Counted from the first letter of the stretch, positions 4,675 to 29,365 are shown. The stretch is DNA of 64,000 bases from Balneolaceae bacterium (GCA_017640605.1 JAEPQH010000006.1:62001-126000), one strand, 5' to 3'. Numbers and translations are program-made. The notes: generated by a model from the sequence alone, not told the origin.

Positions 4675-7600
4675 ATGAGAAATCGGGTAGCTCTACTTTT
4701 TATAGGTTTTATATGCTGTGCTTCGTCGAGTTTGGTTTATAGCCAATCGTTGCTTTACGAATCGTTCGATGTCCCTATTCCAGCTTCCGATACCACGTTT
4801 TATTTAGATCATTGGTTGGATGAATATTCCATACAAGTAAAAACGCTACCTGATAGTATCGATATTATAAACTGGGAATATCAGCAAGATACCGGTTCAC
4901 TTTTTTTGCCACTTATTGATTCTACCCTATCTAAAGGGCAAAAAGCACTCTCAATTTATTATCAGCGATTTTCTACGAGTTTGGAAAGAGTGTATCAACT
5001 AAATCAGATAAAAGAATACATACAGGAAGTTGAGAACACTGACTCTTTGCGTCAAAGCACATTCGTGGAAGATAGCCGATATACTTCCGAAATCGAACAA
5101 TCAGGGAGTTTAAGCAGGGGAATTATTGTGGGGTCGAATCAGGATTTTGCCCTTGAAAGCGGACTTCAGTTTCAATTAGCTGGAAAGTTAACCGAGAAAA
5201 TCACCCTTGATGCTGTTTTAACTGATCAAAGTATTCCATTTCAACCGGATGGTACCACACAAAGTATTCGAGAATTTGATCGGGTATTGATTCGATTGCA
5301 TTCCGAGCAAGCGCAACTAGAAATGGGAGATGTAGATGTCAGTTTATCAAATACCATATTTGGCCAATTAAACCGGCGTTTACAAGGGGCTTCCGGTGAA
5401 TACTCCGGGGAACAGAATAATTCAAAATTTGCAGTTTCTTCGGTGCGAGGTACATTTTCCTCTCAACAATTCTTAGGCATTGAAGGAGTTCGGGGTCCAT
5501 ATCGGCTGACGGGGAGAAATAACGAACCATTTGTAATTATACTTGCAGGTACTGAACGGGTTTTTATAAACGGACAGCTAGTTCAACGAGGAGAGGAAAA
5601 TGAGTACATCATCGATTATGGTTTGGGTGAGATTTACTTCACCGATCAGGTTTTTATCAAAGATGAAACCCGAATTTTTGTAGAATACGAATATGTTGAT
5701 CAGGAATTCAGTCGAACGCTGATTGCAGGCGAGGCCAATCAAAAACTCTGGAATAATAAATTCGAACTGGGTGTCAGCGTTATCCGCATGGCAGACGGTA
5801 ATGACTTACTTTCCCAACAAAGCTTATCCGCAGAAGATATTGACATACTCGAATCGGTGGGTGATCAAACTGAAAATGCTATAGTGTCCGGTATTGTCAG
5901 TAATCCAGAGGAAGATGAATTCAATATTCGATATGCATTGATTGATACCGTTTTTCAAGGTCAAAACTATCAGATTTTTAAGAATATTCCCGGTTCGGCT
6001 TCTTCAAATATAGCAGTTCGTTTTTCTAACGTAGGTCAGGGCAATGGTTCTTATGTTCGGGTAGGAAATGTGCTAAATGGATTACTGTATGAATGGCGAG
6101 GTCCCGGGAGTGGAAGCTATGAACCTTTTCGAAACTTGCCGGCACCGGAAAAACATCAGATGGTTTCAATAACCGGAGCACATCAAATAACAGAAAGGCT
6201 TTCCTGGTATGGAGAAGTCGCACTTAGCGATGTGGATCAAAATCGATTCTCCACTTTAGATGATAATGACAACGCAGATGTTGCCTTTATTGGCGGACTT
6301 TCAGCTGAAGAATTAGAAATAGGAACGGTTTCCTTAGATGTCAATTATCAACATCGCCAGAGTGGTGAAAACTTTAAGTCCTTCGAACGAACCAGAGAAA
6401 TAGAGTTCGACCGTAGGTGGAATATCAGCGAAACCGATATTAATGGCGAGAAAATGGATGAATTTCGGGTTGCGGTACAATTTGGAGAAAAATCAAAAGC
6501 GGATGCAGAAATTGGAAGATTGATGCTACCGGGACAGCAAAGTTTGAGACAATCTGCAGGTGTAGTCTCAGAAATCGTTTCATCTACGTACATCAATTAT
6601 AAACAAGAATATGCCAGAACAAATTTAGAAGCAACGGGAATGGAGGATTCCTGGTTAAAACAAATCTCAATTATTCGAACAGATATTTCTAAAACTATTA
6701 GTGGATCGATAAATGTAGAGCATGAGGATAAACAAAATCGAAGGAAAGAAGGGGAGTTATCAAATAATTCATTTCGGTTTATTGAGGTGATCCCCGGAAT
6801 CGAAGTTCGAGTAAACTCGGCGGTGATAAAAGCTGGAATTGGATTCCGTGAAGAAAATATCGTACAAAATGGCTCATTTATAAAAGCATATGACGCCGTT
6901 GAACAACTATATGGGCTCGAATGGGAATACGGAACACTTTTGAGCACCGAAAATACCATCCGCCTTAGAAATAAAAAAACTTCGGAAACGCTGAAAGATC
7001 AAGGAGTGGGTAACTCCAATGCGTTGTTGATCAGTTCAGAAAATCAGTTAGAAACTGAGAGTTTAAGTTTGAGGTCAAGATATTCAGTAAATACCCAGCG
7101 GCAATCAATTGTACAGGAATCTTATTTTGAGGTTGGTCCGGAGCTAGGACAATATGTTTGGATAGATGGAAATGAAAATGGTATTGAAGAAATCGACGAG
7201 TTCTTTCCAGAGCTATCACCAAACGAAGGAACCTATATCCTGCAATATTTGCCTTCGGATGAGTTGGTGCCAAGCACAGAGCTAAGATTTAGAAATGGAT
7301 TTGAATGGCAACCCTTTTTTGATCGAGAAAATGAATCAGATCAATATCAATTCCTGCAAAGTATTCGCCTAGAAAGCCGGTTTGACGTGCTCGAAAACTC
7401 TACGAATCCTAAAGAAAGCGATATATATTTTTTACGCTTCAATACATTTAGAAATGATTCTCTGAGTATACAAGGTAGACTACATTGGTCGAATCGGATC
7501 GAATTTCAACCTACAAACCGTTGGGAAAGCTCTTTATTTATAAGCACAACCCGTTCATTGAATCGGAGAAGTTCTGAAACCGTAAAATCTTTTGATCAAC

Positions 7601-8243: not shown

Positions 8244-8292
8244 TTCGCTTCACTAATCTTAGATACTAACATTTAAAATATTCGGAGTGAAC

Positions 8293-9021
8293 ATGACATC
8301 GTCGATTGCTCTCTTTCTATTACAAGCCCCAGCCAATGAAGGCTTTTTTAACCTAATTGTTGAGAAATTTAACGAAGGTAATGATGGTGGCTGGATGTGG
8401 CCAGTACTTATTACTTTGATTTTGGGTCTTGCAATATTTCTTGAAAGAATTATTACCCTTAACCTTGCTGACATCAATACACGGAAGTTTATTGTTAACG
8501 TTCAGGAAGCTCTTCAGGAAGGCGGCGTTGAAGCTGCAGAACAACTTTGTGCACAAACTCGTGGACCGGTTGCCTCTGTATTTCAAGCTGGTTTAATGCG
8601 TTCACACGAAGGAATTGATGCCGCAGAAAAAGCTATTGCGGCTTACGGCTCTATCGAAATGAGCTTCCTTGAAAGAGGACTTGTTTGGCTTTCATTATTC
8701 ATCGCAATTGCTCCACTATTTGGATTCCTTGGAACGGTAGTTGGTATGATCGAGGCCTTCGATGATATCCAAGCTGCTTCTGATATCTCTCCATCTATTG
8801 TAGCCGGTGGTATTAAAACGGCACTTTTAACAACTGCTGGTGGTTTGATAGCAGGTATTATTCTTCAAATCGGTTACAACTATTGTGTTTCTAAAATCGA
8901 CCGTTTGATTGCCGAGATGGAAGAAAGCTCAATCACTCTTATCGATTCTATTATTTTATTACAAGAAGGTAAGCCGCTTGTTCCTGCAGTAGAAGCTGCA
9001 ACCGACTCAGAAACTGAATAA
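8293..9021 (+). CDS. exbB: MotA/TolQ/ExbB proton channel family protein
   Basis: The 242-residue protein has three membrane segments: about residues 30-50 (WPVLITLILGLAIFLE), 125-150 (WLSLFIAIAPLFGFLGTVVGM) and 170-190. The ExbB/TolQ signature PLFGFLGTVVGMIEAF is followed by GGIKTALLTTAGGLIAGI. ExbB forms the inner-membrane pentamer that, with ExbD, converts proton motive force into mechanical work on TonB or TolA. CGGAG at 8283-8287 lies 5 bases before the ATG at 8293, which favours it over the in-frame GTG at 8287. It is the first gene of a four-gene operon that also holds two ExbD genes. Confidence 0.93.
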   Translation: MTSSIALFLLQAPANEGFFNLIVEKFNEGNDGGWMWPVLITLILGLAIFLERIITLNLADINTRKFIVNVQEALQEGGVEAAEQLCAQTRGPVASVFQAGLMRSHEGIDAAEKAIAAYGSIEMSFLERGLVWLSLFIAIAPLFGFLGTVVGMIEAFDDIQAASDISPSIVAGGIKTALLTTAGGLIAGIILQIGYNYCVSKIDRLIAEMEESSITLIDSIILLQEGKPLVPAVEAATDSETE

Positions 9022-9045
9022 TTAACCCCCAAACGGAGAAGCTTT

Positions 9046-9327
9046 ATGGAAAGCAGTGTAATTGTACAAATAGCCGTTATTGGAGCCATGGGTTTAATTG
9101 GGTTGGGCGTTGCCTCGATGATTATATCGGGCATTAAAAGTCTTGCACAAGGAAAACAGGATGTAAAACGTATTGTTATCATGGCTGTGCCCTTCGTCAT
9201 CTTTGGTATTGCTTACGGCGTTTTAGGTGATATACCTAAAGCCGGAGTATTAACCACAATGTCGATGATGGGAATCATGGTTGTTTCTGTGATTTTCACC
9301 GGCCTACGCGGCACTTTTAAATTTTAA
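9046..9327 (+). CDS. Small membrane protein in the exbB-exbD operon, function unknown
   Basis: This 93-residue protein is almost all hydrophobic. It has three predicted membrane spans at about residues 5-30, 44-61 and 68-88, joined by a short basic loop (SLAQGKQDVKR). I do not recognise a family. It lies between exbB and the first exbD, with its own CGGAG ribosome-binding site 7 bases before the ATG. Its conserved place in the operon (24 bp after exbB, 15 bp before exbD) suggests an accessory subunit of the ExbB/ExbD motor; this is inference. It is clearly a real gene, given the spacing, ribosome-binding site and codon use. Confidence 0.8.
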   Translation: MESSVIVQIAVIGAMGLIGLGVASMIISGIKSLAQGKQDVKRIVIMAVPFVIFGIAYGVLGDIPKAGVLTTMSMMGIMVVSVIFTGLRGTFKF

Positions 9328-9342
9328 AACCGGAGCATTTCT

Positions 9343-9885
9343 ATGCTATTAAAAAAGAAAAAAAGAGAAGGAGCGGAAATAAATGGTTCGTCGATGGCAG
9401 ACATCGCCTTCCTGCTGCTCATTTTCTTCCTGGTTACCACCACAATTAATGTGGATACCGGGATTGGGATGGTATTGCCTCCGCCATTAGACGAAGAGGT
9501 TGATCCACCACCCATTCGTGAACGTAATCAGATGAACATTCTGGTAAACGCACAAGGACTTATTCTTATGGATGAGCAACCAACCGCAATTACCGAAGTT
9601 CGTGAGAAACTAAAAGAGTTTATCGATAACCCTAATAACGATGAAACTCTTGCAGTATCACCTGAAGCAGCGATTGTTTCACTCAAAACTCAGAAAGAAA
9701 CTCCTTACCGAATTTACATTGATATGTTGGATGAGGTAATGGGCGCATACAAAGAGTTACGTGATGCAGCCTCGCGAGCAAACTATGGTGTAGAATTTGA
9801 TCGACTTCAGCCGGAATCAGCTCAGCGTGAGCAAATTCAGGATATGTATCCTAAGAAAATTTCAATCGCAGCGGAGGAAGGATAA
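9343..9885 (+). CDS. exbD: Biopolymer transport protein ExbD/TolR (first copy)
   Basis: The 180-residue protein has a basic N-terminus, one membrane helix at about residues 18-38 (SMADIAFLLLIFFLVTTTI) and a periplasmic domain. The Asp in MADIAFLLLIFFLVTT is the proton-carrying residue of the ExbD/TolR family. It works with ExbB to energise TonB-type transducers. The periplasmic domain is longer than in typical ExbD (about 140 residues) and includes a proline/acid-rich segment (PPPLDEEVDPPP). CGGAG lies 7 bases before the ATG, and the stop overlaps the start of the next exbD by one base. Confidence 0.92.
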   Translation: MLLKKKKREGAEINGSSMADIAFLLLIFFLVTTTINVDTGIGMVLPPPLDEEVDPPPIRERNQMNILVNAQGLILMDEQPTAITEVREKLKEFIDNPNNDETLAVSPEAAIVSLKTQKETPYRIYIDMLDEVMGAYKELRDAASRANYGVEFDRLQPESAQREQIQDMYPKKISIAAEEG

Positions 9886-10334
9886 TGGCAGGTCATTTTA
9901 AAAAGAAACAAGCAGGAAGTAAGCAAGAAATCCCTACTTCAGCCATGCCTGATGTAGTATTCATGCTTCTGTTCTTCTTCATGGTAACCACCGTACTCCG
10001 GGAAGTTACCTTGAAAGTGAAACTTGATTTAACGCAAGCTACTCACATCGAGAAAATCGAAGAAAAACGATTAGTGTCTTACATCTATATGGGGCCTGAG
10101 CGTTTACCGGGAAATGAACTTGGTGAAGATAAAGTGCAAATCGACGATGCAATCGTAGATGATATCGGAGCAATTCGTAATCTCATGTACGATAAACTGT
10201 TAGAAGAGCCAAGGTTGATTGTTTCCCTTCGAGTGGATCAGAATTCTCAATTCGAATTACTGTCGGATGTTCAAAAAGAACTTCAACAGGCAGGTACTTT
10301 CCGAATTAACTATTCTACCAAACGCGAAGAGTAG
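9885..10334 (+). CDS. exbD: Biopolymer transport protein ExbD/TolR (second copy)
   Basis: The 149-residue protein repeats the ExbD plan: a short basic tail, then a single helix with the proton-relay aspartate (SAMPDVVFMLLFFFMVTTVL, about residues 19-40), then a periplasmic domain. It differs strongly from the first ExbD, so it is an old paralogue and not a recent copy. Paired ExbD genes may allow ExbD heterodimers in the motor pore. Its ATG overlaps the previous stop (TAATG at 9883-9887), implying translational coupling; CGGAGG precedes it by 7 bases. A strong terminator follows. Confidence 0.92.
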   Translation: MAGHFKKKQAGSKQEIPTSAMPDVVFMLLFFFMVTTVLREVTLKVKLDLTQATHIEKIEEKRLVSYIYMGPERLPGNELGEDKVQIDDAIVDDIGAIRNLMYDKLLEEPRLIVSLRVDQNSQFELLSDVQKELQQAGTFRINYSTKREE

Positions 10335-11533: not shown

Positions 11534-13666
11534 ATGGCTGATAACAAGCCCAACAAGAAAAAAACTATAAAGCCGCCTACTGGTGGTGGCAACAAACCCG
11601 GTAGCCCAAAGTTTCCAACCTGGGGTTTTCTGGTTATTATCCTGTTTTTAATATTTGTTCAGTTTTTGTTTTTAAATCCTGAGCCCGGTAATGGTATCAA
11701 ATACAGCGAATTTTTGTCGGACGTTAAGAATGGCTATGTAGAAGAAATCATTATCAAAAATGGCGTTGATATTTTTGGCAAGTATAATGACAAAGCCATA
11801 AGTGATGGTATAATAACGCCCCCCGCCGAATCAGATAATCCACTCAATATTCCATCGGCATCAGGAGAAGAGTTTAGAGCTTTTGTAACCACCATGCTTC
11901 CGGGAGATGACATCCGCCCAATTTTAGATGAGTATAATGTAGAATATGAAGTACGCATCGAAGAAGACTGGTTCAGTGGCGTATTCATGTGGTTGATTAT
12001 GATTGCACTTGCCATCGGATTCTGGGTGTTTATTTTCAGAAGAATGAATCCCGGACAACAAGTGCTCAATATTGGGAAGAACAAAGCCTCGTTGTATGAT
12101 CAACAAACTGACACAAAAGTAACTTTTAAAGACGTTGCCGGTTTAGATGAAGCAAAAGAAGAAGTAAAAGAGATTGTTGAATTTTTAAAGAATCCCGGCA
12201 AATTCACCAAACTTGGTGGTAAGATTCCTAAAGGTGCACTTTTAGTTGGATCTCCCGGTACCGGTAAAACATTACTTGCAAAAGCTGTTGCCGGTGAGGC
12301 TGCCGTACCATTTTTCTCACTTTCCGGTTCGGATTTCGTGGAAATGTTTGTAGGTGTGGGTGCGGCACGTGTTCGTGATCTATTCAAGCAAGCGAAAGAA
12401 AAAGCGCCATGTATCATCTTTATTGATGAGATTGATGCCATTGGACGTTCTCGAGGCCGTGGTCAAATGCCAGGTGCTAACGATGAGCGCGAGAACACCT
12501 TAAACTCTTTATTAGTAGAAATGGATGGTTTTGCTACGGATTCAGGCGTAATCATTCTAGCAGCAACCAATCGTCCAGATGTTTTGGACAATGCGTTATT
12601 ACGTCCCGGACGTTTTGATCGACAAATTTCTATCGACAAACCGGATATAGTTGGGCGAAAAGCAATCTTTAAAGTGCATCTTGAGCCACTAACACTCTCG
12701 AAAGATGTTGACGTGAAAAAACTTGCTGCGGCTACACCGGGCTTTGCCGGCGCAGAAATCGCGAATGTTTGTAATGAAGCCGCTTTAATTGCTGCTCGTA
12801 GCGACAAAGACTCCGTTGACATGGATGATTTCCACGATGCGATTGATCGTGTTATTGGTGGTCTTGAGAAAAAGAATAAAATTATCTCGCCAGAAGAAAA
12901 AGAGATCGTGGCGTATCATGAAGCAGGTCACGCAGTGGCAGGTTGGTACCTAGAACATGCAGATCCATTGGTTAAGGTTTCTATTGTTCCTCGTGGAATT
13001 GCTGCGTTGGGATATGCACAGTATTTACCAAAAGAACAGTACTTACACCAAACCGATCAGTTGTTAGATGAAATGTGTATGGCATTAGGTGGTAGAGCCG
13101 CCGAGCAAATCATCTTTGGCAAAATTTCCACCGGTGCGTTGAGTGATTTGGAAAGAATCACCAAAATGGCATACAGCATTGTTACCGTGTATGGAATGAA
13201 TGATCGCATTGGTAATATATCGTTTTACGATTCCAAGCAGAACGATTACAACTTTAATAAGCCTTATTCGGAAGACACAGCAAAGATCATCGACGAAGAA
13301 GTAAAAAAGATAGTGGATGGTGCGTATCAGCGAACTATCGAGTTACTAACCGAGAAGAAAGAGCAGCTTGAGATTCTTGCTAAAGAATTGCTCGATAAAG
13401 AGATTATTTTCCAGTCTGATCTTGAAAAATTAATCGGTAAGCGCCCATTTGATAAGCCAACAAATTATGAGGCCTACACAAATGGGGAAGCGTCAAATGA
13501 TGATGACGAATCTACTACCGAAGAGGAAAAAGGTAGCGATGAAAATGAAGATAATACCGATGAAAATATTAGCGCCAATGTTAACACGGTAATATCCGAC
13601 GATGAAAACGGTGCGGAAGAAACAAGCGATGAAGACGCTAAAAAGCCCGATTCTTCTAGCTCTTAA
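11534..13666 (+). CDS. ftsH: ATP-dependent zinc metalloprotease FtsH
   Basis: The 710-residue membrane-anchored AAA+ protease removes damaged or regulated membrane and cytosolic proteins. Two membrane helices (about residues 30-48 and 148-168) flank a periplasmic domain. The AAA module has Walker A GSPGTGKT (239-246), Walker B IIFIDE (294-299) and the second region of homology near 340-362. The zinc site is HEAGH (462-466). The second Walker A residue is Ser rather than the usual Pro, a mild variation. The C-terminal tail (about 655-710) is a long acidic Glu/Asp/Ser/Asn stretch likely to be disordered. The stop codon begins the first unit of an 11-bp repeat array that appears to control the next gene. 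Confidence 0.97.
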
Positions 13667-13740
13667 CATTGAGGTAATGCTTGGATAACTTTCGGGTAAC
13701 TATCCGATAACAGAAGCATAAACAGCAGGTAACAGTACGG
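13664..13740 (+). promoter_or_regulatory. Array of seven 11-bp direct repeats (TAAC units), probable activator-binding site
   Basis: TAA occurs at 13664, 13675, 13686, 13697, 13708, 13719 and 13730, exactly 11 bp apart. Five of the seven units read TAAC, one TAAT and one TAAAC. The two bases before each unit from the second on are GG, GA or CA, so the core is roughly G-R-TAAC. Head-to-tail sites spaced by 11 bp, one per helical turn, are the classic binding mode of PhoB/OmpR-family response regulators, including Pho boxes. The array ends 14 bp before a -7 element. The first unit coincides with the ftsH stop codon and may be chance. Confidence 0.7.
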
Positions 13741-13754
13741 AAAAGAGTGTGACG

Positions 13755-13762
13755 TAGTTTTG
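13755..13762 (+). promoter_or_regulatory. Bacteroidota-type -7 promoter element for the TonB receptor operon
   Basis: TAGTTTTG exactly matches the TAnnTTTG -7 consensus described for Bacteroidota primary sigma factors. The expected TTTG -33 element is not seen about 19 bp upstream; the last units of the 11-bp array lie there instead, as at activator-dependent promoters. The predicted transcript start is a few bases after 13762, about 40 bp before the GTG start at 13808. Confidence 0.5.
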
Positions 13763-13807: not shown

Positions 13808-16690
13808 GTGAACAAAATAAAAATCACTTCCGTACTGATCTTTGCCTTACTAATCACATCAAATCTTTTAGCGCAAAGCTCAGCCAAAATCACCGGAACT
13901 GTAGTAGACAGTGAAACCGGTGAAACCTTGATCGGTGTTAACGTTGTAATCGACGGTACTATTAAAGGTACAGCCACCGATATTGATGGCAGATACACCA
14001 TCAGAAATGTAGAGCCCGGAACTTACACTCTTGTAGTAAGTTATCTGTCCTTTTCAACCCAACGCATTACTGATGTTGTTGTGGAAGAAGGAGCAACTGT
14101 TACTTTAGATGTAGCACTTCAGCCCGAATCTGAATTACTAGACGAAATTGTAGTAACTGCCGATGTAGTACTCAATAACGAAGCAGGGCTTTTACGTCAA
14201 CGCCAAAAATCTATCGCTTTTTCTGATGCGATTTCAGCGGAATCTATTTCGAAATCCGGATCCGGTGACGCCGCCGGAGCGCTTAAGAAAGTAGTGGGAG
14301 CATCGGTTGTTGGGGGAAAATACGTGTACGTTAGAGGTCTTGGTGATCGATACTCTACAGCTCACTTGAATGGATCAGAGCTTCCAAGTGCCGATCCTGA
14401 CAAAAATGCCTTTCAACTGGATTTGATTCCTAGCAATGTGATTGAAAACATTGTTACCATCAAAACCTTTACCCCTGACAAGCCGGGAAATTTTTCAGGC
14501 GGATTGGTAGATGTTACGACAAAAGATTTCCCTGAATCGATGTTGTTTAATATCTCTTCATCGGTTGGTTTCAATACCGAAACTACCTTTAAAGATGGGT
14601 TGGGATCAACCAGAAGTAATTCTGAGTTAATTGCCCTTAGTGGAGACATTAGAGAATTACCAACAGCAGTTGAGCAAAATTTAGGCAGTATTCCTCAGCG
14701 AGCCGATTCTTTCCTCAAATTCAGAGACGACCATTTAGCAGCTTCAGATACATTAGATCGCGTTAGTAGTGCATTCAATAACGAGATGACTCCTCGTAAT
14801 ATCACTATTCCATTAAACACCGGTTTATCGATGTCGTTAGGAAATGAGTTTCAATTCTTGAACCGTGATTTTGGGTATATCGTAGGCTTTTCTCACAATC
14901 GTTCATTTTCATCTTATGAAAATGGAACTGATGGTATATATCAACTTATTGGTAATCTGACACCTGAAACAGAGTTAAATGCTTTAAATAATCTCTCTGA
15001 TTTCAGAACCCAGGAGAATATCGATTTAGGAGGGTTGGCTTCGCTATCATTCAAAGCAAATCCAAATAATAAAGTGTCGCTTACTTGGGTTCGAACTCAA
15101 AGTGGTACAAATGAAGGTCGCGCGCTCAATGGTTTTAGAGAAGAAATCGATCAAGGTGGGTTTGATAGCTATAACTCTACCGTTATTTCTTACACAGAGC
15201 GAAAACTAAGTTCATTTCAAGCAAGTGGTAAGCATGTAGCTCCTGCATTAAATAACCTCACTTTCGAATGGAGTGGGACTTTTTCTGAAAACGAATTAGA
15301 CCAACCTGATATACGATTTTTTGAATATGGAATTCGTACCGCAGACACTACGTATTCGATTTCTACCGGTGCTTACTCACGTCCGCAACGATTTTTCCGA
15401 AATATGGATGAATCTAATACCAATTTGATTGCCGACTTAAGTCTTCCTATTCGATTTGGGCAAGGTAATACTATGATTTTAAAAACAGGTGGTTCTTATC
15501 TCGAAGGTGATCGAACATTTCGTGAGCGAAGATTTGCTTACGGACAGGATCGTGCAGATTTAAATGATTTTGATGGAAATTTTGATGAATTCTTTGCCTA
15601 CACCGGGATTGATGATGAGTTAACAGATGCCAACAATACCTTTATTTATTACGGGCATTATATTTTCGATCGTACCAACATCACAAATAATTATGATGGC
15701 TCAAAAGAGATAAAAGCCGGATATATGATGGCTGAAATTCCCTTTGGAAGATTCAAGTTTATTGGTGGCGCTCGTTATGAAACCACATTATTAAAGGCTG
15801 AAAGCCAAAATATTGAATTAGATGATTCACTTCGAATTGGTGAAATCGATCAGGAAGATTTGTTACCGTCAGCTTCACTAATCTTTAGCCTAAATGAGAA
15901 TCAAAATTTTAGAATAGCGTATTCAAACACACTGGCAAGACCTAGTTATCGTGAAATTGCGCCATTCTCTGGATTCGATGCCTACGGTGGTTCAATCAAT
16001 GTAGGAAATATCAATCTCGATCGGACTTTAATTACGAACTACGATGCTCGTTGGGAATATTTCTTAGGTGTTGGTGAGTTAGTAGCGATTAGTGGTTTTT
16101 ATAAAAATCTCGAGAATCCTATTGAGCGCGTTTTTGATACTCAGCGTGTACGTACAAGAACCTGGCAAAATGTTGAAGAAGCAACCGTTTACGGTGTCGA
16201 ATTTGAAGTAAGAAAGAACCTTGGTTTCATTACTCCAAAATTTGAATATCTATCACTAGCTACTAATCTAACTTTTGTTCATTCAGAAGTGAATGTGCCA
16301 GAAGAAGAGTTATTTACAGCAAGAATCAGTGATCCTGATTTTGAAGATACCCGACCACTTTATGGTCAATCACCCTACATCTTCAATATGGATTTGTCCT
16401 ATTTAAATCCTGAAATCGATCTTACTGTTGACTTAAATACCAACGTTTTTGGCGATCGACTATCCGATGTTACCCTAGGTGCAAATCCGGATGTATTTGA
16501 GCGCGGATATGTAACTACTGATCTAATCATATCTAAAGGTTTTGCCAATAATTTCAGTGCCAAGCTATCACTAAAGAACTTATTAGATCCTGAGATTAAG
16601 AATTCATCAGAATTGAATGGAGAAGAATATGTGTATCAGTCTTTCAACCGAGGCCGATCCATTTCATTGAGTATATCCTATAAACTCTAA
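13808..16690 (+). CDS. TonB-dependent outer membrane receptor with carboxypeptidase-regulatory-like N-terminal domain
   Basis: The start is a GTG, chosen because it begins a signal peptide (KIKITSVLIFALLITSNLLAQ) and no ATG lies nearby upstream. After cleavage a carboxypeptidase-regulatory-like domain spans about residues 25-105 (ITGTVVDSETGETLIGVNVV). The plug is at about 110-235 (LDEIVVTADVV, then YVYVRGLGDRYSTAHLNG) and a 22-stranded barrel-like region runs to the C-terminus (SISLSISYKL). Such receptors import large or scarce substrates using TonB-ExbB-ExbD. It lies 31 bp before the gene for a duplicated secreted protein, its likely partner. Its control region holds an 11-bp repeat array. 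The ligand cannot be told from sequence. Confidence 0.92.
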   Translation: MNKIKITSVLIFALLITSNLLAQSSAKITGTVVDSETGETLIGVNVVIDGTIKGTATDIDGRYTIRNVEPGTYTLVVSYLSFSTQRITDVVVEEGATVTLDVALQPESELLDEIVVTADVVLNNEAGLLRQRQKSIAFSDAISAESISKSGSGDAAGALKKVVGASVVGGKYVYVRGLGDRYSTAHLNGSELPSADPDKNAFQLDLIPSNVIENIVTIKTFTPDKPGNFSGGLVDVTTKDFPESMLFNISSSVGFNTETTFKDGLGSTRSNSELIALSGDIRELPTAVEQNLGSIPQRADSFLKFRDDHLAASDTLDRVSSAFNNEMTPRNITIPLNTGLSMSLGNEFQFLNRDFGYIVGFSHNRSFSSYENGTDGIYQLIGNLTPETELNALNNLSDFRTQENIDLGGLASLSFKANPNNKVSLTWVRTQSGTNEGRALNGFREEIDQGGFDSYNSTVISYTERKLSSFQASGKHVAPALNNLTFEWSGTFSENELDQPDIRFFEYGIRTADTTYSISTGAYSRPQRFFRNMDESNTNLIADLSLPIRFGQGNTMILKTGGSYLEGDRTFRERRFAYGQDRADLNDFDGNFDEFFAYTGIDDELTDANNTFIYYGHYIFDRTNITNNYDGSKEIKAGYMMAEIPFGRFKFIGGARYETTLLKAESQNIELDDSLRIGEIDQEDLLPSASLIFSLNENQNFRIAYSNTLARPSYREIAPFSGFDAYGGSINVGNINLDRTLITNYDARWEYFLGVGELVAISGFYKNLENPIERVFDTQRVRTRTWQNVEEATVYGVEFEVRKNLGFITPKFEYLSLATNLTFVHSEVNVPEEELFTARISDPDFEDTRPLYGQSPYIFNMDLSYLNPEIDLTVDLNTNVFGDRLSDVTLGANPDVFERGYVTTDLIISKGFANNFSAKLSLKNLLDPEIKNSSELNGEEYVYQSFNRGRSISLSISYKL

Positions 16691-16721
16691 AACAATCAAA
16701 AACCAAACAACAACCAACACT

Positions 16722-19700
16722 ATGCTTAAAAGATACATTCTTACTTTATTCTGCATCGCGTTTTCTGTTTCTGCTTTTGCGCAAACGGTAAACGTAACTA
16801 ATGCAGACTTCATGGCAGATACCGATTACTACTGGACTGCTGACAACACTTATATTTTGGATGACTTGGTATTCATCAAGCCGGGTTCGCGCTTATTCAT
16901 CGAGCCGGGAACATTGATTCAGGGTAACACTGGTGATGGTAACGATGCTACCGGTCTTGTAATCACTCGTGGTGCTAAGATCTACGCCGAAGGTACTCCA
17001 TCGAATCCAATCGTTTTCACTTCTATTGCCGATCAAAGAGACGGCACGGCGAACTCTTCGCTTCGCGGATTGTGGGGTGGAGTAGTAATCCTGGGTGCAG
17101 CCTCAACCAATAACGCTACCGCAGGTGGCGTGAAGTTGGTAGAAGGAGTGGATCAGATTGCCAATCCTGTAGCTCTTGCTGAGTACGGTGGAGACAACGA
17201 CGCTGACGATTCCGGTGTAATCCGCTATGTATCTATCCGTCACACCGGTATTCAGGTAGGTGATGTTGATGGAAACGAGATTCAAGGTCTTACTTTAGGT
17301 GGCGTTGGTTCTGGAACTACTATTGAGTACATAGAATCGTTTGCCTCCAACGATGATGGATTTGAGTTCTTTGGTGGAACTGTAAACACGAAGTTCTTAG
17401 TGTCTGCTTTTAACACCGATGATGCTTTCGATTGGGATGAAGGATTCCGTGGGAAAGGTCAGTTCTGGTTTGCCATTCAGGATAACGGCGTAGCAGATGG
17501 TTACGGTCGTGCTGCAGAGCAGGATGGAGCTACTGGTGATGAGAACACCACTCCGTTTGCCAAGCCGGTAGTATCGAATGTTACCTACTTGGGCGCTGGT
17601 TTAGATGCCGGAGCGAATGCCGGTGATGGTTCGCAATTACTTCTTTTCCGTGATAACACAGGTGGAGAGTACTACAACTCAATCTTCGGCGACCACGCCG
17701 GGTTAGGAATTACGATTGAAGCAGCGGGTAAAGTAGCCAACTTTGATTCTAAGACTCGTTTAGCCGAAGGTGATCTGAAGTTAATGAACAACCTATGGTG
17801 GGGCTTTGGAGCCGGTAACACGATTGCAGAATTCGCTGGTGGCGAAGATCAGGGGCATACTCGTGATTACCTCAGCAATGCCGCTAACGGTAACATGGTT
17901 GCTGATCCACAGTTTGCTGCAATTGGCCGTACAGATGGAGGAAATGGACTAAATCCTGTTCCTGCTACCGATGGTCCTGCTTTTACAATGGATAGAATGA
18001 TGATGGAAGATCCATTCTTCACCAATGTACCTTTTGTAGGCGCATTCGGTTCTGAAAACTGGTTACGTGGTTGGACTGCACTCGAAGAGCACGGATATTT
18101 AGCAGCTGCATCAGCAAAAACCACTGTAACGGTTGCTAACGCTGACTTTGTTGAAAATACCGATTACTACTGGACTGCTGACAACACTTATATTTTGGAT
18201 GACTTGGTGTTCATCAAGCCGGGTTCGCGCTTATTCATTGAGCCGGGAACATTGATTCAGGGTAACACCGGTGATGGTAACGACGCTACCGGCCTTGTAA
18301 TCACACGTGGTGCTAAGATCTACGCTGAAGGTACCCCATCGAATCCAATCGTATTCACTTCTATTGCCGATCAAAGAGATGGTACGGCGAACTCTTCACT
18401 TCGCGGATTGTGGGGTGGAGTTGTAATCCTGGGTTCAGCTTCAACCAATAACGCTACCGCAGGTGGTGTGAAGTTGGTGGAAGGTGTGGATCAGATTGCC
18501 AATCCTGTAGCTCTTGCTGAGTACGGTGGAGACAACGACGCTGATGATTCCGGAGTATTCCGATACGTATCTATTCGTCACACCGGTATTCAAGTAGGTG
18601 ATATTGATGGAAACGAGATTCAGGGTCTTACTTTAGGTGGCGTTGGTTCTGGAACTACTATTGAGTACGTAGAATCATTTGCCTCCAACGATGATGGATT
18701 TGAGTTTTTTGGTGGAACTGTAAACACGAAGTTCTTAGTGTCGGCTTTCAACACCGATGATGCTTTCGATTGGGATGAAGGATTCCGCGGGAAAGGTCAG
18801 TTCTGGTTTGCCATTCAAGATAACGGCGTAGCAGATGGTTACGGTCGTGCTGCAGAGCAGGATGGAGCCACTGGTGATGAGAACACCACTCCGTTTGCCA
18901 AGCCGGTAGTATCGAATGTTACTTACTTGGGCGCTGGCTTAGATGCCGGAGCGAATGCCGGTGACGGTTCGCAGTTACTTCTTTTCCGTGATAACACAGG
19001 TGGAGAGTACTACAACTCAATCTTTGGCGACCACGCCGGGTTAGGTATAACGATTGAAGCAGCGGGTAAAGTAGCCAACTTTGATTCTAAGACTCGTTTA
19101 GCCGAAGGTGATCTGAAGTTGATGAACAACCTGTGGTGGGGCTTTGGTGCCGGTAACACGATTGCAGAATTCGCTGGTGGCGCAGATCAGGCGCATACTC
19201 GTGACTACCTCAGCAATGCCGCTAACGGTAATATGGTTGCTGATCCAGAATTAAACGGTATTGACCGTAGTGATGCAGGTATGGCTTTAGATCCTCGTCC
19301 AAATCTTAATGGTATGGCTTACAGAATGGCTCTAAAAGATATGAGTGGCGATGATTTCTTTACTGCTACTAACTACGCAGGAGCATTTGGCCCAAGTTTA
19401 TGGATTGCCGGATGGACTGCTCTTGAAGAACATGGATATTTACGTGATGGCGGAGTAATCAGCCCGGTAGAAGATGTGTTTGAGCGTCCGGTTGCGATTT
19501 CTTTAGACCAAAACTATCCAAACCCATTCAACCCATCTACTAACATTTCTTTTGCATTACCATCTACACAGAAGGTAACCTTGAAAGTGTACGATATGCT
19601 AGGACGTGAAGTAGCTACTTTGATCAACAACCAAACTGTTTCTGCAGGCCAGCAAACAGTGAGTTTTGATGCATCCGGCTTGTCTTCCGGTGTGTACATC

Positions 19701-19757
19701 TACCAATTAGTAGGTGCGAATGCATCGATCACAAAGCGTATGACATTGATCAAGTAA
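16722..19757 (+). CDS. Secreted surface protein with two near-identical beta-helix-like halves and a Por-type sorting tail
   Basis: A signal peptide (residues 1-20, ending SAFAQ) is followed by two repeats of about 440 residues. Both begin DYYWTADNTYILDDL and contain GGVGSGTTIEY, ASNDDGFEFFGGTVN and DEGFRGKGQFWF. The repeats are offset by exactly 446 codons (1338 bp). The repeated short strands and turns suggest a right-handed beta-helix. The last 85 or so residues (NYPNPFNPSTNISFALP, then VYDMLGREV, ending TLIK) form a C-terminal secretion/anchoring tail of the type IX or FlgD-like kind. It is 31 bp after the TonB receptor gene and ends at a strong terminator, so the two form one operon. I infer a surface binding or capture partner for that receptor; no enzymatic motif was found. 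Confidence 0.88.
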   Translation: MLKRYILTLFCIAFSVSAFAQTVNVTNADFMADTDYYWTADNTYILDDLVFIKPGSRLFIEPGTLIQGNTGDGNDATGLVITRGAKIYAEGTPSNPIVFTSIADQRDGTANSSLRGLWGGVVILGAASTNNATAGGVKLVEGVDQIANPVALAEYGGDNDADDSGVIRYVSIRHTGIQVGDVDGNEIQGLTLGGVGSGTTIEYIESFASNDDGFEFFGGTVNTKFLVSAFNTDDAFDWDEGFRGKGQFWFAIQDNGVADGYGRAAEQDGATGDENTTPFAKPVVSNVTYLGAGLDAGANAGDGSQLLLFRDNTGGEYYNSIFGDHAGLGITIEAAGKVANFDSKTRLAEGDLKLMNNLWWGFGAGNTIAEFAGGEDQGHTRDYLSNAANGNMVADPQFAAIGRTDGGNGLNPVPATDGPAFTMDRMMMEDPFFTNVPFVGAFGSENWLRGWTALEEHGYLAAASAKTTVTVANADFVENTDYYWTADNTYILDDLVFIKPGSRLFIEPGTLIQGNTGDGNDATGLVITRGAKIYAEGTPSNPIVFTSIADQRDGTANSSLRGLWGGVVILGSASTNNATAGGVKLVEGVDQIANPVALAEYGGDNDADDSGVFRYVSIRHTGIQVGDIDGNEIQGLTLGGVGSGTTIEYVESFASNDDGFEFFGGTVNTKFLVSAFNTDDAFDWDEGFRGKGQFWFAIQDNGVADGYGRAAEQDGATGDENTTPFAKPVVSNVTYLGAGLDAGANAGDGSQLLLFRDNTGGEYYNSIFGDHAGLGITIEAAGKVANFDSKTRLAEGDLKLMNNLWWGFGAGNTIAEFAGGADQAHTRDYLSNAANGNMVADPELNGIDRSDAGMALDPRPNLNGMAYRMALKDMSGDDFFTATNYAGAFGPSLWIAGWTALEEHGYLRDGGVISPVEDVFERPVAISLDQNYPNPFNPSTNISFALPSTQKVTLKVYDMLGREVATLINNQTVSAGQQTVSFDASGLSSGVYIYQLVGANASITKRMTLIK
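16821..17911 (+). repeat. Intragenic direct repeat, first copy (1338-bp offset)
   Basis: About 1.09 kb here is repeated almost base for base at 18159-19249 within the same gene. By eye the differences are scattered, mostly third-position changes. Similarity drops sharply after GCTGATCC in both copies. Confidence 0.95.
18159..19249 (+). repeat. Intragenic direct repeat, second copy
   Basis: This is the second copy of the 16821-17911 segment at an exact 1338-bp (446-codon) offset, so the reading frame is preserved. Few protein differences are seen (for example Ala to Ser and Val to Ile changes), implying recent duplication or ongoing gene conversion. Confidence 0.95.
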
Positions 19758-19810
19758 GAAGAATCTACTCGAAGAAACGTCTCACAATATGTGAGGTGTG
19801 CTGATCACAA

Positions 19811-19846
19811 GGGGAGCTCCAGGGAACTGGGGCTCCTCTTTTTTTT
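19811..19846 (+). terminator. Strong rho-independent terminator of the TonB receptor operon
   Basis: A 12-bp stem (GGGGAGCTCCAG with CTGGGGCTCCTC, two G-U pairs) around a GGAA loop is followed by eight T residues. It lies 54 bp after the stop of the duplicated secreted protein. Confidence 0.92.
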
Positions 19847-19919: not shown

Positions 19920-19962
19920 GTGCCCTAACTCATTGGGCTGTAATTCACTAAGTAATATTATT

Positions 19963-26588: not shown

Positions 26589-26779
26589 AGTTAGTTAGTT
26601 GGATGTGGCAGAATCTAGTAAATCAGTGATGAAAATCGAATAATAAAAGAAACTAAATTGGTTTTTGAATTATGACAAAACAGTTTGACTAGCCAAAAAT
26701 CTAACTTCTTACAATATCGTAACAATAGTCTGCTTATCTTGTGAAACTATTCATTTCTCAATTAAGGACTAAAGGCAAT

Positions 26780-29365
26780 ATGAAATCGATTCTGCGAAGC
26801 GCAGCGATCCTGTTCGCGATCACACTTTTTACAGCACCACTAAACGCACAATTATTTGAAGATTTTGAAGGAGGCGATAAAAGTGGCTATTCAGGTGCTT
26901 CAGTTGCTTTGGCTTCCGGATCTTGGTTTTTGGATGATGCGTTACTTGGTAGCCTAAGCAACGATAAATTCAACGGCGGACAAAGCGTACGCATGGATCG
27001 TAGAAATGATCGAATGGGCAATATCTTTATGGAATTTGATAAACCCAATGGAGCAGATGAGGTTTCATTCTACTTAGCGCATTATGGGAGTAATGCTAAT
27101 AATGCCGCATTACAGGTTCAGTACTCGATAGACGGCGGTTCTAGCTGGATAAACATTGGTGATGAAATTACCGCCCCGGAAAATCTCACTCAATTTACCA
27201 TACCCGTTCAAATTGATGGAAATATTCGCTTTAAATTTATTCAGTCGGGAGGTACCGATCGTTTAAATATCGATGATATACTCATTACCGACTACATCGA
27301 ACCGGCTGACGAGCCAACTGTACTAGTAAGCGTAGATAATATTGAGCTAGCTAACGAGGGGAATATCACTTTTGCGACGACTCTGGTTGGCACCAATCGC
27401 ACAAAAACCATCACCATAAAAAATGTTGGGAACCAAAAATTAGGTATCGACAGTGCGTATGTTTCCGGCTCTGTTTTCTCTCTTACTGCCCCAACAGCCG
27501 ATAGTTTAGCGTTTAACGAATCGGTATCACTTACGTTAACTTATACGCCGGATGCAGCCGGAGATGATGTTTCTCAGTTTACACTTTTATCCAATGCGGT
27601 AAATCAGGCTACGTTCACTGCAAACATAAGTGGAGATGCTATTGAGGACGGTGACGTAATTTCTATTGCAGATGCTCGCCAATTACCCCTCGGAACCAGA
27701 GTTTCGGTTCAGGGAAGAGTAACGGTAGCCAACGAGTTTGGCGGACCGCTTTATATGCAGGATGGCACAGCGGGAATCGCAGTATTTTGGTCCGATCTGC
27801 ACGCAGCAACTTCAATTGGCGATTCCATTCAAGTAACAGGTCCGCTAAACGTATTTAAACCAATTGCAGGTCCTGATTCTGATTTTCTACTTCAGATATC
27901 CGCTACCGATGAGGATAACAACATTCTATTTGAAGTATTTGATGTTGAAGCGGTTGAGCCACAGCCGAAAGTAATAACCATTACTGAAATGAACTCCGGG
28001 ATGTTCGAATCGCAATTGGTTACTATTCAAAACACCACCATTAGTGCTGATGGCGTATTTCAAGCGAATACTAATTACGATATTTCGGACGCTACAGGAG
28101 AGGCCGAACTAAGAATTGATAATTCAACCGATTTAGTGGATGCAGAGGCACCCACTGAAGCCATCAACATAACCGGTGTAATCGGAAAATTTGCCGGTGT
28201 ATATCAATTATTACCACGTACGGTTGCCGATTTAAATATCGAAGCCGTGGTAACTCCCGGCGAAGATACTCCACTTGATGTAACCTTTGATATAGTTACC
28301 TGGAACATTGAATGGTTCGGTCTTGATGGAAGCGGTCCTGAAGATGAAGCTCTACAGCTCGAAAATGTAAAAACGCTCATCACTACGATGGATGCAGATG
28401 TATACGCGTTGCAAGAAATTTCTAACGAGAGTTTCTTTACTACTTTAGATAACGATCTTACCGAATATGATGGAATCATCGCGAATTACAGTCAGACTCA
28501 AAAAACTGCTTATTTGTATAAATCATCGACTGTGCAAAGGCGAGAATCCCGGTTAATTACCAATGGTATGAACCAATCTGATTGGGCAAATGGTCGCTAT
28601 CCTTTTTATTTCAAATTCAATGCTACCATAAATGGTGAAGTGCGCGAAATGCATGTGTTCAACATCCATGCGAAAGCTTTTGGTGAGCAATCGGATTACA
28701 CGCAGCGATTAAACGCTTCCACACAAATGAAGGCGTATATCGATAATAATCATGCCGATGATAATGTGATTTTTCTGGGTGATTTCAACGACGAAATTCT
28801 TCAATCAACTGTAGGAAGTAACGAGTCGCCGTACGCAAATTTTGATCAGGATACCGAATACACCATCGTTACTCGATCGTTGGAAGAACGTGGTTTTACT
28901 TCCTTCTCGAGCTCTAGTATGATCGATCATATCGTGTTTTCTTCCGAACTCGTAGATGAATACTTTGAAGGAACCGAACAAATAGAAAATCCAACTTATA
29001 TCGGAAGCTACCTGAGTACTACCTCCGACCATTTCCCGGTTTGGGTTCGGTTCGAGTGGGGAGAAGCGGTATCAACCGAAGAACAGTATGGCTATACACC
29101 ATATTCTTTCAGCTTAGATCAGAACTATCCTAACCCTTTTAATCCGGCAACTACCATCAATTATTCGATTGCTGATGCAGGTGCAGTTCAACTTTCAGTA
29201 TTTGATGTAACCGGACGAAGAGTGGCAGTACTAGTTAACGAGACTAAAAACGCAGGTGCTCACACGGTGCAATTCGATGCAACTTCGCTTTCGAGTGGAG
29301 TATATTTTTATCGATTGGAGACACCTACGGGCATTCTCACAAAGAAAATGTTATTGGTTAAGTAA
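26780..29365 (+). CDS. Secreted endonuclease/exonuclease/phosphatase-family protein with OB-fold domain and Por-type tail
   Basis: I chose the ATG at 26780 over the GTG at 26741 because it follows AAAGG and opens a signal peptide (MKSILRSAAILFAITLF); this gives 861 residues. Domains in order are: a jelly-roll-like N-terminal domain, an Ig-like/choice-of-anchor domain near 180-285, an OB-fold-like region near 290-490 (RVSVQGRVTVANEFGGPLYMQDG), the nuclease domain near 505-760 and a C-terminal sorting tail (NYPNPFNPATTINYSI, ending MLLVK). The nuclease has TWNIEWFG, the metal-binding Glu in ALQEIS, GDFND and SDHFPVWV. It probably degrades extracellular DNA or RNA for nutrients, including phosphorus. 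Confidence 0.88.
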   Translation: MKSILRSAAILFAITLFTAPLNAQLFEDFEGGDKSGYSGASVALASGSWFLDDALLGSLSNDKFNGGQSVRMDRRNDRMGNIFMEFDKPNGADEVSFYLAHYGSNANNAALQVQYSIDGGSSWINIGDEITAPENLTQFTIPVQIDGNIRFKFIQSGGTDRLNIDDILITDYIEPADEPTVLVSVDNIELANEGNITFATTLVGTNRTKTITIKNVGNQKLGIDSAYVSGSVFSLTAPTADSLAFNESVSLTLTYTPDAAGDDVSQFTLLSNAVNQATFTANISGDAIEDGDVISIADARQLPLGTRVSVQGRVTVANEFGGPLYMQDGTAGIAVFWSDLHAATSIGDSIQVTGPLNVFKPIAGPDSDFLLQISATDEDNNILFEVFDVEAVEPQPKVITITEMNSGMFESQLVTIQNTTISADGVFQANTNYDISDATGEAELRIDNSTDLVDAEAPTEAINITGVIGKFAGVYQLLPRTVADLNIEAVVTPGEDTPLDVTFDIVTWNIEWFGLDGSGPEDEALQLENVKTLITTMDADVYALQEISNESFFTTLDNDLTEYDGIIANYSQTQKTAYLYKSSTVQRRESRLITNGMNQSDWANGRYPFYFKFNATINGEVREMHVFNIHAKAFGEQSDYTQRLNASTQMKAYIDNNHADDNVIFLGDFNDEILQSTVGSNESPYANFDQDTEYTIVTRSLEERGFTSFSSSSMIDHIVFSSELVDEYFEGTEQIENPTYIGSYLSTTSDHFPVWVRFEWGEAVSTEEQYGYTPYSFSLDQNYPNPFNPATTINYSIADAGAVQLSVFDVTGRRVAVLVNETKNAGAHTVQFDATSLSSGVYFYRLETPTGILTKKMLLVK

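Follow-up and report, generated by a model that had tools for sequence, protein, structure and literature searches.

In Caulobacter crescentus, the gene for the surface protein ElpS (cc0170) lies beside that for the TonB receptor Cc0171, and ElpS is induced by starvation for inorganic phosphate (Pi) (Le Blastier et al. 2010, PMC2996285); the co-occurrence of elpS and receptor genes across genomes was already noted in that work. Flavobacterium johnsoniae has two pairs of this type, Fjoh_0545/0546 (FII), which is found in the phoBR cluster and forms PUSIV, and Fjoh_3857/3856 (FI), which forms PUSIII (PMC8115612). Fjoh_0545 is a TonB-dependent transporter with the domains PF07715, PF13715, and PF14905; it adjoins the pectin-lyase-fold surface protein Fjoh_0546, and is strongly induced by Pi depletion, as FII is by Pi starvation (Lidbury et al. 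2020, PMC8115612). In phosphate-starved Flavobacterium, few products are induced as strongly as the ElpS-type proteins (PMC8115612). Here, we analyzed a 64,000-nucleotide stretch from a Balneolaceae bacterium (GCA_017640605.1 JAEPQH010000006.1:62001-126000), hereafter the window, in which the gene for a TonB-dependent receptor (13808-16690) is followed on the same strand by that for a secreted beta-helix protein (16722-19757). Based on gene order, domain content (all three Fjoh_0545 domains occur in the window receptor), and the published relatedness of FI-FIII to ElpS, this pair very probably belongs to the ElpS-Cc0171/PUSIV kind. An earlier sequence-only reading had put it forward as a candidate surface uptake system; that such a system would be new is not supported, as both the pairing and the link to phosphate were published in 2010 (PMC2996285) and 2020 (PMC8115612).

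A Pho-box-like array precedes the pair at 13663-13734 (+ strand). It consists of seven [TG]TAA[CT]A-type units with 11-bp spacing, starting at 13663, 13674, 13685, 13696, 13707, 13718, and 13729, the first of which overlaps the ftsH stop codon. The array is the sole 11-bp outlier of the 64 kb (score 24.8, next best 16.1), and its level was reached by none of 100 shuffles; what the sequence-only reading called a putative activator array is thus real. At least four period-11 copies are present in 30 of 83 upstream regions of homologous pairs, compared with 0–6 regions for the other periods between 7 and 20. About 21 bp past the last unit, TAGTTTTG (13755-13762, + strand) is a candidate Bacteroidota -7 promoter element, for which the consensus is TAnnTTTG, and its core and spacing are kept in aligned Balneolaceae upstream regions. 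In Riemerella, another member of the Bacteroidota, a regulator upregulated by Pi starvation recognizes a motif in which TTTAACA forms the best-conserved part (PMC9603813). A limited literature search returned no paper describing an array for this gene pair. Elsewhere in the source genome, at G000:C32:36094-36153 (L163, 8095-8160, minus strand), a further TTAAC array, with an 11-bp period and about six units, precedes the gene for a 134-aa secreted protein, which is possibly another Pho-regulon gene.

The array is shared with genes of phosphate metabolism. Before plcP, it averages a score of 18.4 at period 11 versus 7.6–10.9 at other periods (21 genomes), and the source genome itself has an array at C33:67532, with plcP and a glycosyltransferase gene downstream of it. 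plcP is a phospholipid-remodeling, phosphate-starvation gene that often has a glycosyltransferase gene behind it (PMC4796936). Two same-family relatives, G042 and G092, have the array before pstS. The neighbors of the pair in other genomes include pstS, pstC, pstB, PPK1, PPK2, and genes for PhoB-type regulators, with a Na/Pi cotransporter gene 25–79 bp away in some relatives and, in six loci, a PlcP gene at a distance of 117–266 bp; the Alteromonas pair lies behind phoB, phoR, and the gene for a phosphate-binding protein and ahead of ExbB/ExbD/TonB genes. Given an array common to plcP and pstS and these recurring neighbors, the pair is very probably a Pho-regulon module, and a link to phosphate at which the sequence-only reading had hinted is strongly supported. 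Several relatives (loci L073, L078, L079, L080, and L126) have ArsR, ArsC-like, and ACR3-like genes within 3 kb of the pair, which would fit arsenate entry through phosphate uptake.

We found the two gene families to be tightly linked. A same-strand TonB receptor gene lies within 1.5 kb of the beta-helix gene at 75 of 85 scored loci (63 receptor-first, 12 partner-first), a set in which a few genomes are counted twice. When only interior loci are considered, the count is 60/65 (50 receptor-first, 10 partner-first). Among the five unpaired interior loci, L056, L069, and L102 do have an adjacent receptor and represent artifacts of open reading frame (ORF) picking, and the frames at L064 are broken; there is no receptor nearby at the fifth, L117, nor at L070. 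Taken over all 91 related loci, a receptor gene is next to the beta-helix gene in about 80. The pairing spans Bacteroidota, Verrucomicrobia, and Proteobacteria, and because gene order varies, the link is not a single frozen ancestral arrangement. Inheritance follows the same pattern: every one of 11 selected partner-bearing genomes has a full-length receptor orthologue, and in 11 of 13 genomes without the partner the receptor orthologue is absent or reduced to a plug-region match. In the two exceptions, G085 and G051, the receptor lies no more than 260 bp from a contig end, at the place where the partner would be expected. Independent occurrence of the two families in most genomes would have spoken against a functional link; across the loci and these 24 genomes the pairing survived, with adjacency at nearly all complete loci and joint presence and absence.

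The receptor gene (13808-16690, + strand) begins with GTG and encodes 960 aa matching PF13715, PF07715, PF00593, and PF14905, arranged as a CarbopepD_reg_2 domain (residues 28-116), a plug (139-219), and a barrel. Its AlphaFold model has the fold of a TonB-dependent transporter (pLDDT 83.6), and Foldseek placed the siderophore-type TonB importers PhuR, PfeA, and FecA as its best PDB matches. The gap to the beta-helix gene is 31 bp. The two genes share an intrinsic terminator at 19809-19840 (+ strand), a hairpin with a 14-bp stem (-25.9 kcal/mol, z -4.85) followed by a T run, and they stand alone, ftsH ending at 13666 and the following gene starting only at 19933. ORFs, Pfam domains, and terminator therefore bear out the isolated operon of a receptor and a tailed secreted partner, with one strong terminator, that had been read from the sequence. 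Upstream of the pair, at 8287-10334, the window also contains genes for ExbB and two ExbD proteins, whose synteny with thiL-like and ftsH genes is conserved; these proteins could energize the receptor, though that synteny is family-wide.

The partner gene (16722-19757, + strand) encodes an ElpS-family protein of 1,011 aa composed of two beta-helix units and a type A tail for the type IX secretion system (T9SS). The sorting domain (19515-19742, + strand; residues 932-1007) matches PF18962 (E 7.3e-13) and TIGR04183 (E 1.4e-12), and the source genome encodes the T9SS translocon SprA (TIGR04189, 1459 bits), so that the protein has both marks of a T9SS type A substrate. By simple pattern tests, 50 homologues have a T9SS-like tail, 24 an N-terminal lipobox, none both, and 23 neither. 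Together with the accessibility of Caulobacter ElpS to proteinase-K (PMC2996285), these results make a surface location of the partner probable, as the sequence-only reading had claimed. Homologues from Opitutaceae and other Verrucomicrobia (L047-L057) end in another kind of C-terminal tail, about 154 aa long, and show neither T9SS likeness nor a lipobox.

Computation established how the two genes pair and are inherited together, the array and its occurrence at phosphate genes, the fold, and the sorting tail. We consider it probable that these genes form a module of the ElpS/Cc0171 (PUSIV) kind that acquires phosphorus as part of the Pho regulon. In phosphate-starved cells, a response regulator, presumably PhoB-like, would bind the seven 11-bp units and have both genes transcribed from the TAGTTTTG promoter. 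The receptor would be placed in the outer membrane, and the beta-helix protein would leave through the T9SS and stay attached to the cell surface, there to capture or prepare a ligand presumed to contain phosphorus (organic or condensed phosphate). The ligand would then be imported by the receptor with TonB energy. The two proteins would presumably touch, and the partner's job would be capture, as opposed to catalysis.

Several points weigh against this interpretation. A six-base weight matrix finds a 4-unit 11-bp array beating all 100 shuffles in 58 of 78 pair upstream regions, but its weights were set after some of these regions had been seen, a bias that the same matrix run at other periods (1–4 of 78 regions, 40 shuffles each) limits and does not remove. 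A relaxed pattern search of the whole source genome gave no more matches than its reversed control, so we relied on location and conservation instead; only the arrays of the pair and of C32 stand out genome-wide, and the plcP site rests on position and relatives. The strict KTAAC triple pattern had few matches in 16 relatives. In Caulobacter, an elpS deletion did not alter extracellular phosphatase activity, and reverse transcription PCR showed cc0171 to be expressed constitutively, so co-regulation of the pair is not universal (PMC2996285).

The properties of the beta-helix protein bear on whether it might instead be an enzyme. Unit 1 (16785-18114, + strand; 443 aa) and unit 2 (18123-19448, + strand) share 89.7% of their residues and 93.7% of their nucleotides. 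The AlphaFold2 model of unit 1 (pLDDT 93.3, pTM 0.94) is a beta-rich repeat of chiefly short strands, in agreement with the all-beta repeat architecture proposed earlier. Its structural relatives, all right-handed beta-helices, are distant (TM ~0.3) and comprise PL6 chondroitinase B, AlgE4, pectate lyases, and polygalacturonase; searches of Pfam, NCBIfam, and the PDB (by sequence and by profile) found no entry for the unit, and Foldseek found no useful match in BFVD. Within the source genome the unit occurs in this gene alone; of 72 matches there, almost all are to the sorting tail. Relatives of the unit are present in 196 of 296 same-phylum genomes. Others come from Verrucomicrobia, Kapabacteria, Ignavibacteria, and Lysobacteraceae, and plasmids carry them in Pseudoalteromonas, Alteromonas, and Sphingomonas, among others. 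Many repeated units are 84–99% identical within one protein, compared with about 50–57% between species, indicating that duplication or homogenization occurred repeatedly.

In an alignment of 68 homologues, eight acidic residues (E165, D190, D191, E194, D212, D213, D216, and E245, in unit numbering) are invariant, and unit 2 retains the same ones. The two DD pairs are spaced by 22 residues, about one coil, an arrangement that would suit a metal or active site. The invariance makes such a site possible in the partner; the earlier statement that it has no enzyme motif stands for the database scans, and the accompanying view of a binding or scaffold role to the exclusion of an enzymatic one is not supported. 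By eye, the pattern resembles GH28 polygalacturonases, which are right-handed beta-helices with conserved aspartates about one coil apart. We considered GH28 membership on the basis of the NDDGFE...TDDAFD motif and of published FI/FII modeling, which also pointed to GH28, and ruled it out (hhalign probability 0.8%, no Pfam match). The rival explanation that survives best is nonetheless a surface enzyme whose acidic cluster binds metal or cleaves a phosphorus-containing polymer or glycan, the receptor importing the product. Besides the invariant residues, this explanation has in its favor that the closest solved folds are beta-helix enzymes and that ElpS overexpression raises extracellular phosphatase activity (PMC2996285). 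Refolded and immunoprecipitated ElpS was, however, inactive on p-nitrophenyl phosphate (PMC2996285), the unit matches no enzyme family by sequence, including GH28, and its TM-scores to enzymes are low. We regard this explanation as rather unlikely.

A second rival holds that the module imports Pi itself or a metal-phosphate complex, replacing the Pst route where that is absent. PhoU had no match in the source genome (3.74 Mb, 99.8% complete) and no recognizable PstS was found there, the PF12849 matches being a LysR regulator and a 139-aa protein; pstS is likewise absent from plant-associated Flavobacterium (PMC8115612). The pair, however, also occurs in genomes with PstS, even inside pst clusters. 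Moreover, Pi ordinarily crosses the outer membrane via porins, without a requirement for TonB energy. We consider replacement of Pst in this sense improbable. At L169 (G000:C9), in the genome without PhoU, a gene for a 397-aa porin-like protein adjoins that for a 139-aa protein, which weakly matches a PstS-type PBP domain.

Less likely still, and in our view very improbable, is that the receptor senses the beta-helix protein or lets it out of the cell, making the module a phosphate-starvation adhesin or secretion device and not an importer. Type II secretion genes do follow the pair in the alphaproteobacteria Sphingomonas and Indioceanicola, and Caulobacter cells release ElpS (PMC2996285), but ElpS is still produced after cc0171 deletion (PMC2996285), the plug and barrel of the window receptor match the importers FecA and PfeA, and the homologues have surface routes of their own in T9SS tails or lipoboxes. 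Finally, a SusC/SusD-type glycan-uptake pair with no phosphate connection, though it too would place a TonB receptor and a surface partner in one operon, can be all but dismissed, as neither protein has a SusD domain (Pfam and NCBIfam scans), the receptor scores 70.2 bits against a SusC/RagA (TIGR04056) cut-off of 368.25 and does so over the N-terminal domain only (residues 27-118), and the recurring neighbors are phosphate genes.

A phosphorus-acquisition module of the ElpS/Cc0171 kind thus remains our preferred reading. More tentatively, such pairs may constitute an ancient, multi-phylum class of outer-membrane phosphorus importers in which a beta-helix with an acidic site replaces SusD, anchors are exchangeable, and the module serves as the main high-affinity route in genomes without PstS and PhoU. 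The strict pairing, the invariant acidic residues, and the Bacteroidota-wide array make it testable which phosphorus compound crosses the outer membrane and how, and the array provides a means of listing phosphate-regulated genes in uncultured Bacteroidota.

The window contains two further genes of note. An ORF of 1,148 aa at 4675-8121 matches nothing in Pfam and includes a stretch with weak likeness to SprA (5542-5793, E 3.5e-4). At 26741-29365, a T9SS-tailed protein combines DUF5689 with an endonuclease/exonuclease/phosphatase domain and is likely an extracellular nuclease; the period-11 scan of the 64-kb window found no Pho-like array upstream of its gene.

Comparison with the described systems shows where the window pair departs from its relatives. 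Homologues in Sphingomonas and Indioceanicola have the order beta-helix, TonB receptor, gsp, as in the published elpS locus, and in tblastn matches to proteins in this order, identity is 30% over 94% for Indioceanicola and 41% over 45% for Sphingomonas. In Caulobacter, gene order is reversed relative to the window, cc0171 is reported as constitutive, and ElpS is a lipoprotein (PMC2996285), whereas the window partner is a predicted T9SS substrate. The Flavobacterium proteins are likewise described as lipoproteins and cluster with phoBR or a protease gene; the window pair stands alone and its partner has a T9SS type A tail. With SusC/SusD and PusC/PusD, the pair shares the joining of a TonB receptor and a surface partner in one operon and a CarbopepD_reg N-terminal domain, but the partner is an unrelated beta-helix and the receptor falls below the SusC cut-off. 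The sequence-only reading had the pair do the job of SusC/SusD without a SusD homologue; the absence of SusD holds, the receptor is by its score no SusC member, and the shared role would be one of analogy. This member of the family is distinguished by its T9SS tail, its two units, and a genome without PhoU or recognizable PstS. To what was described for ElpS-Cc0171 and PUSIV, our analysis appears to add the cross-phylum test of pairing, the array common to plcP and pstS, and the set of invariant acidic residues.

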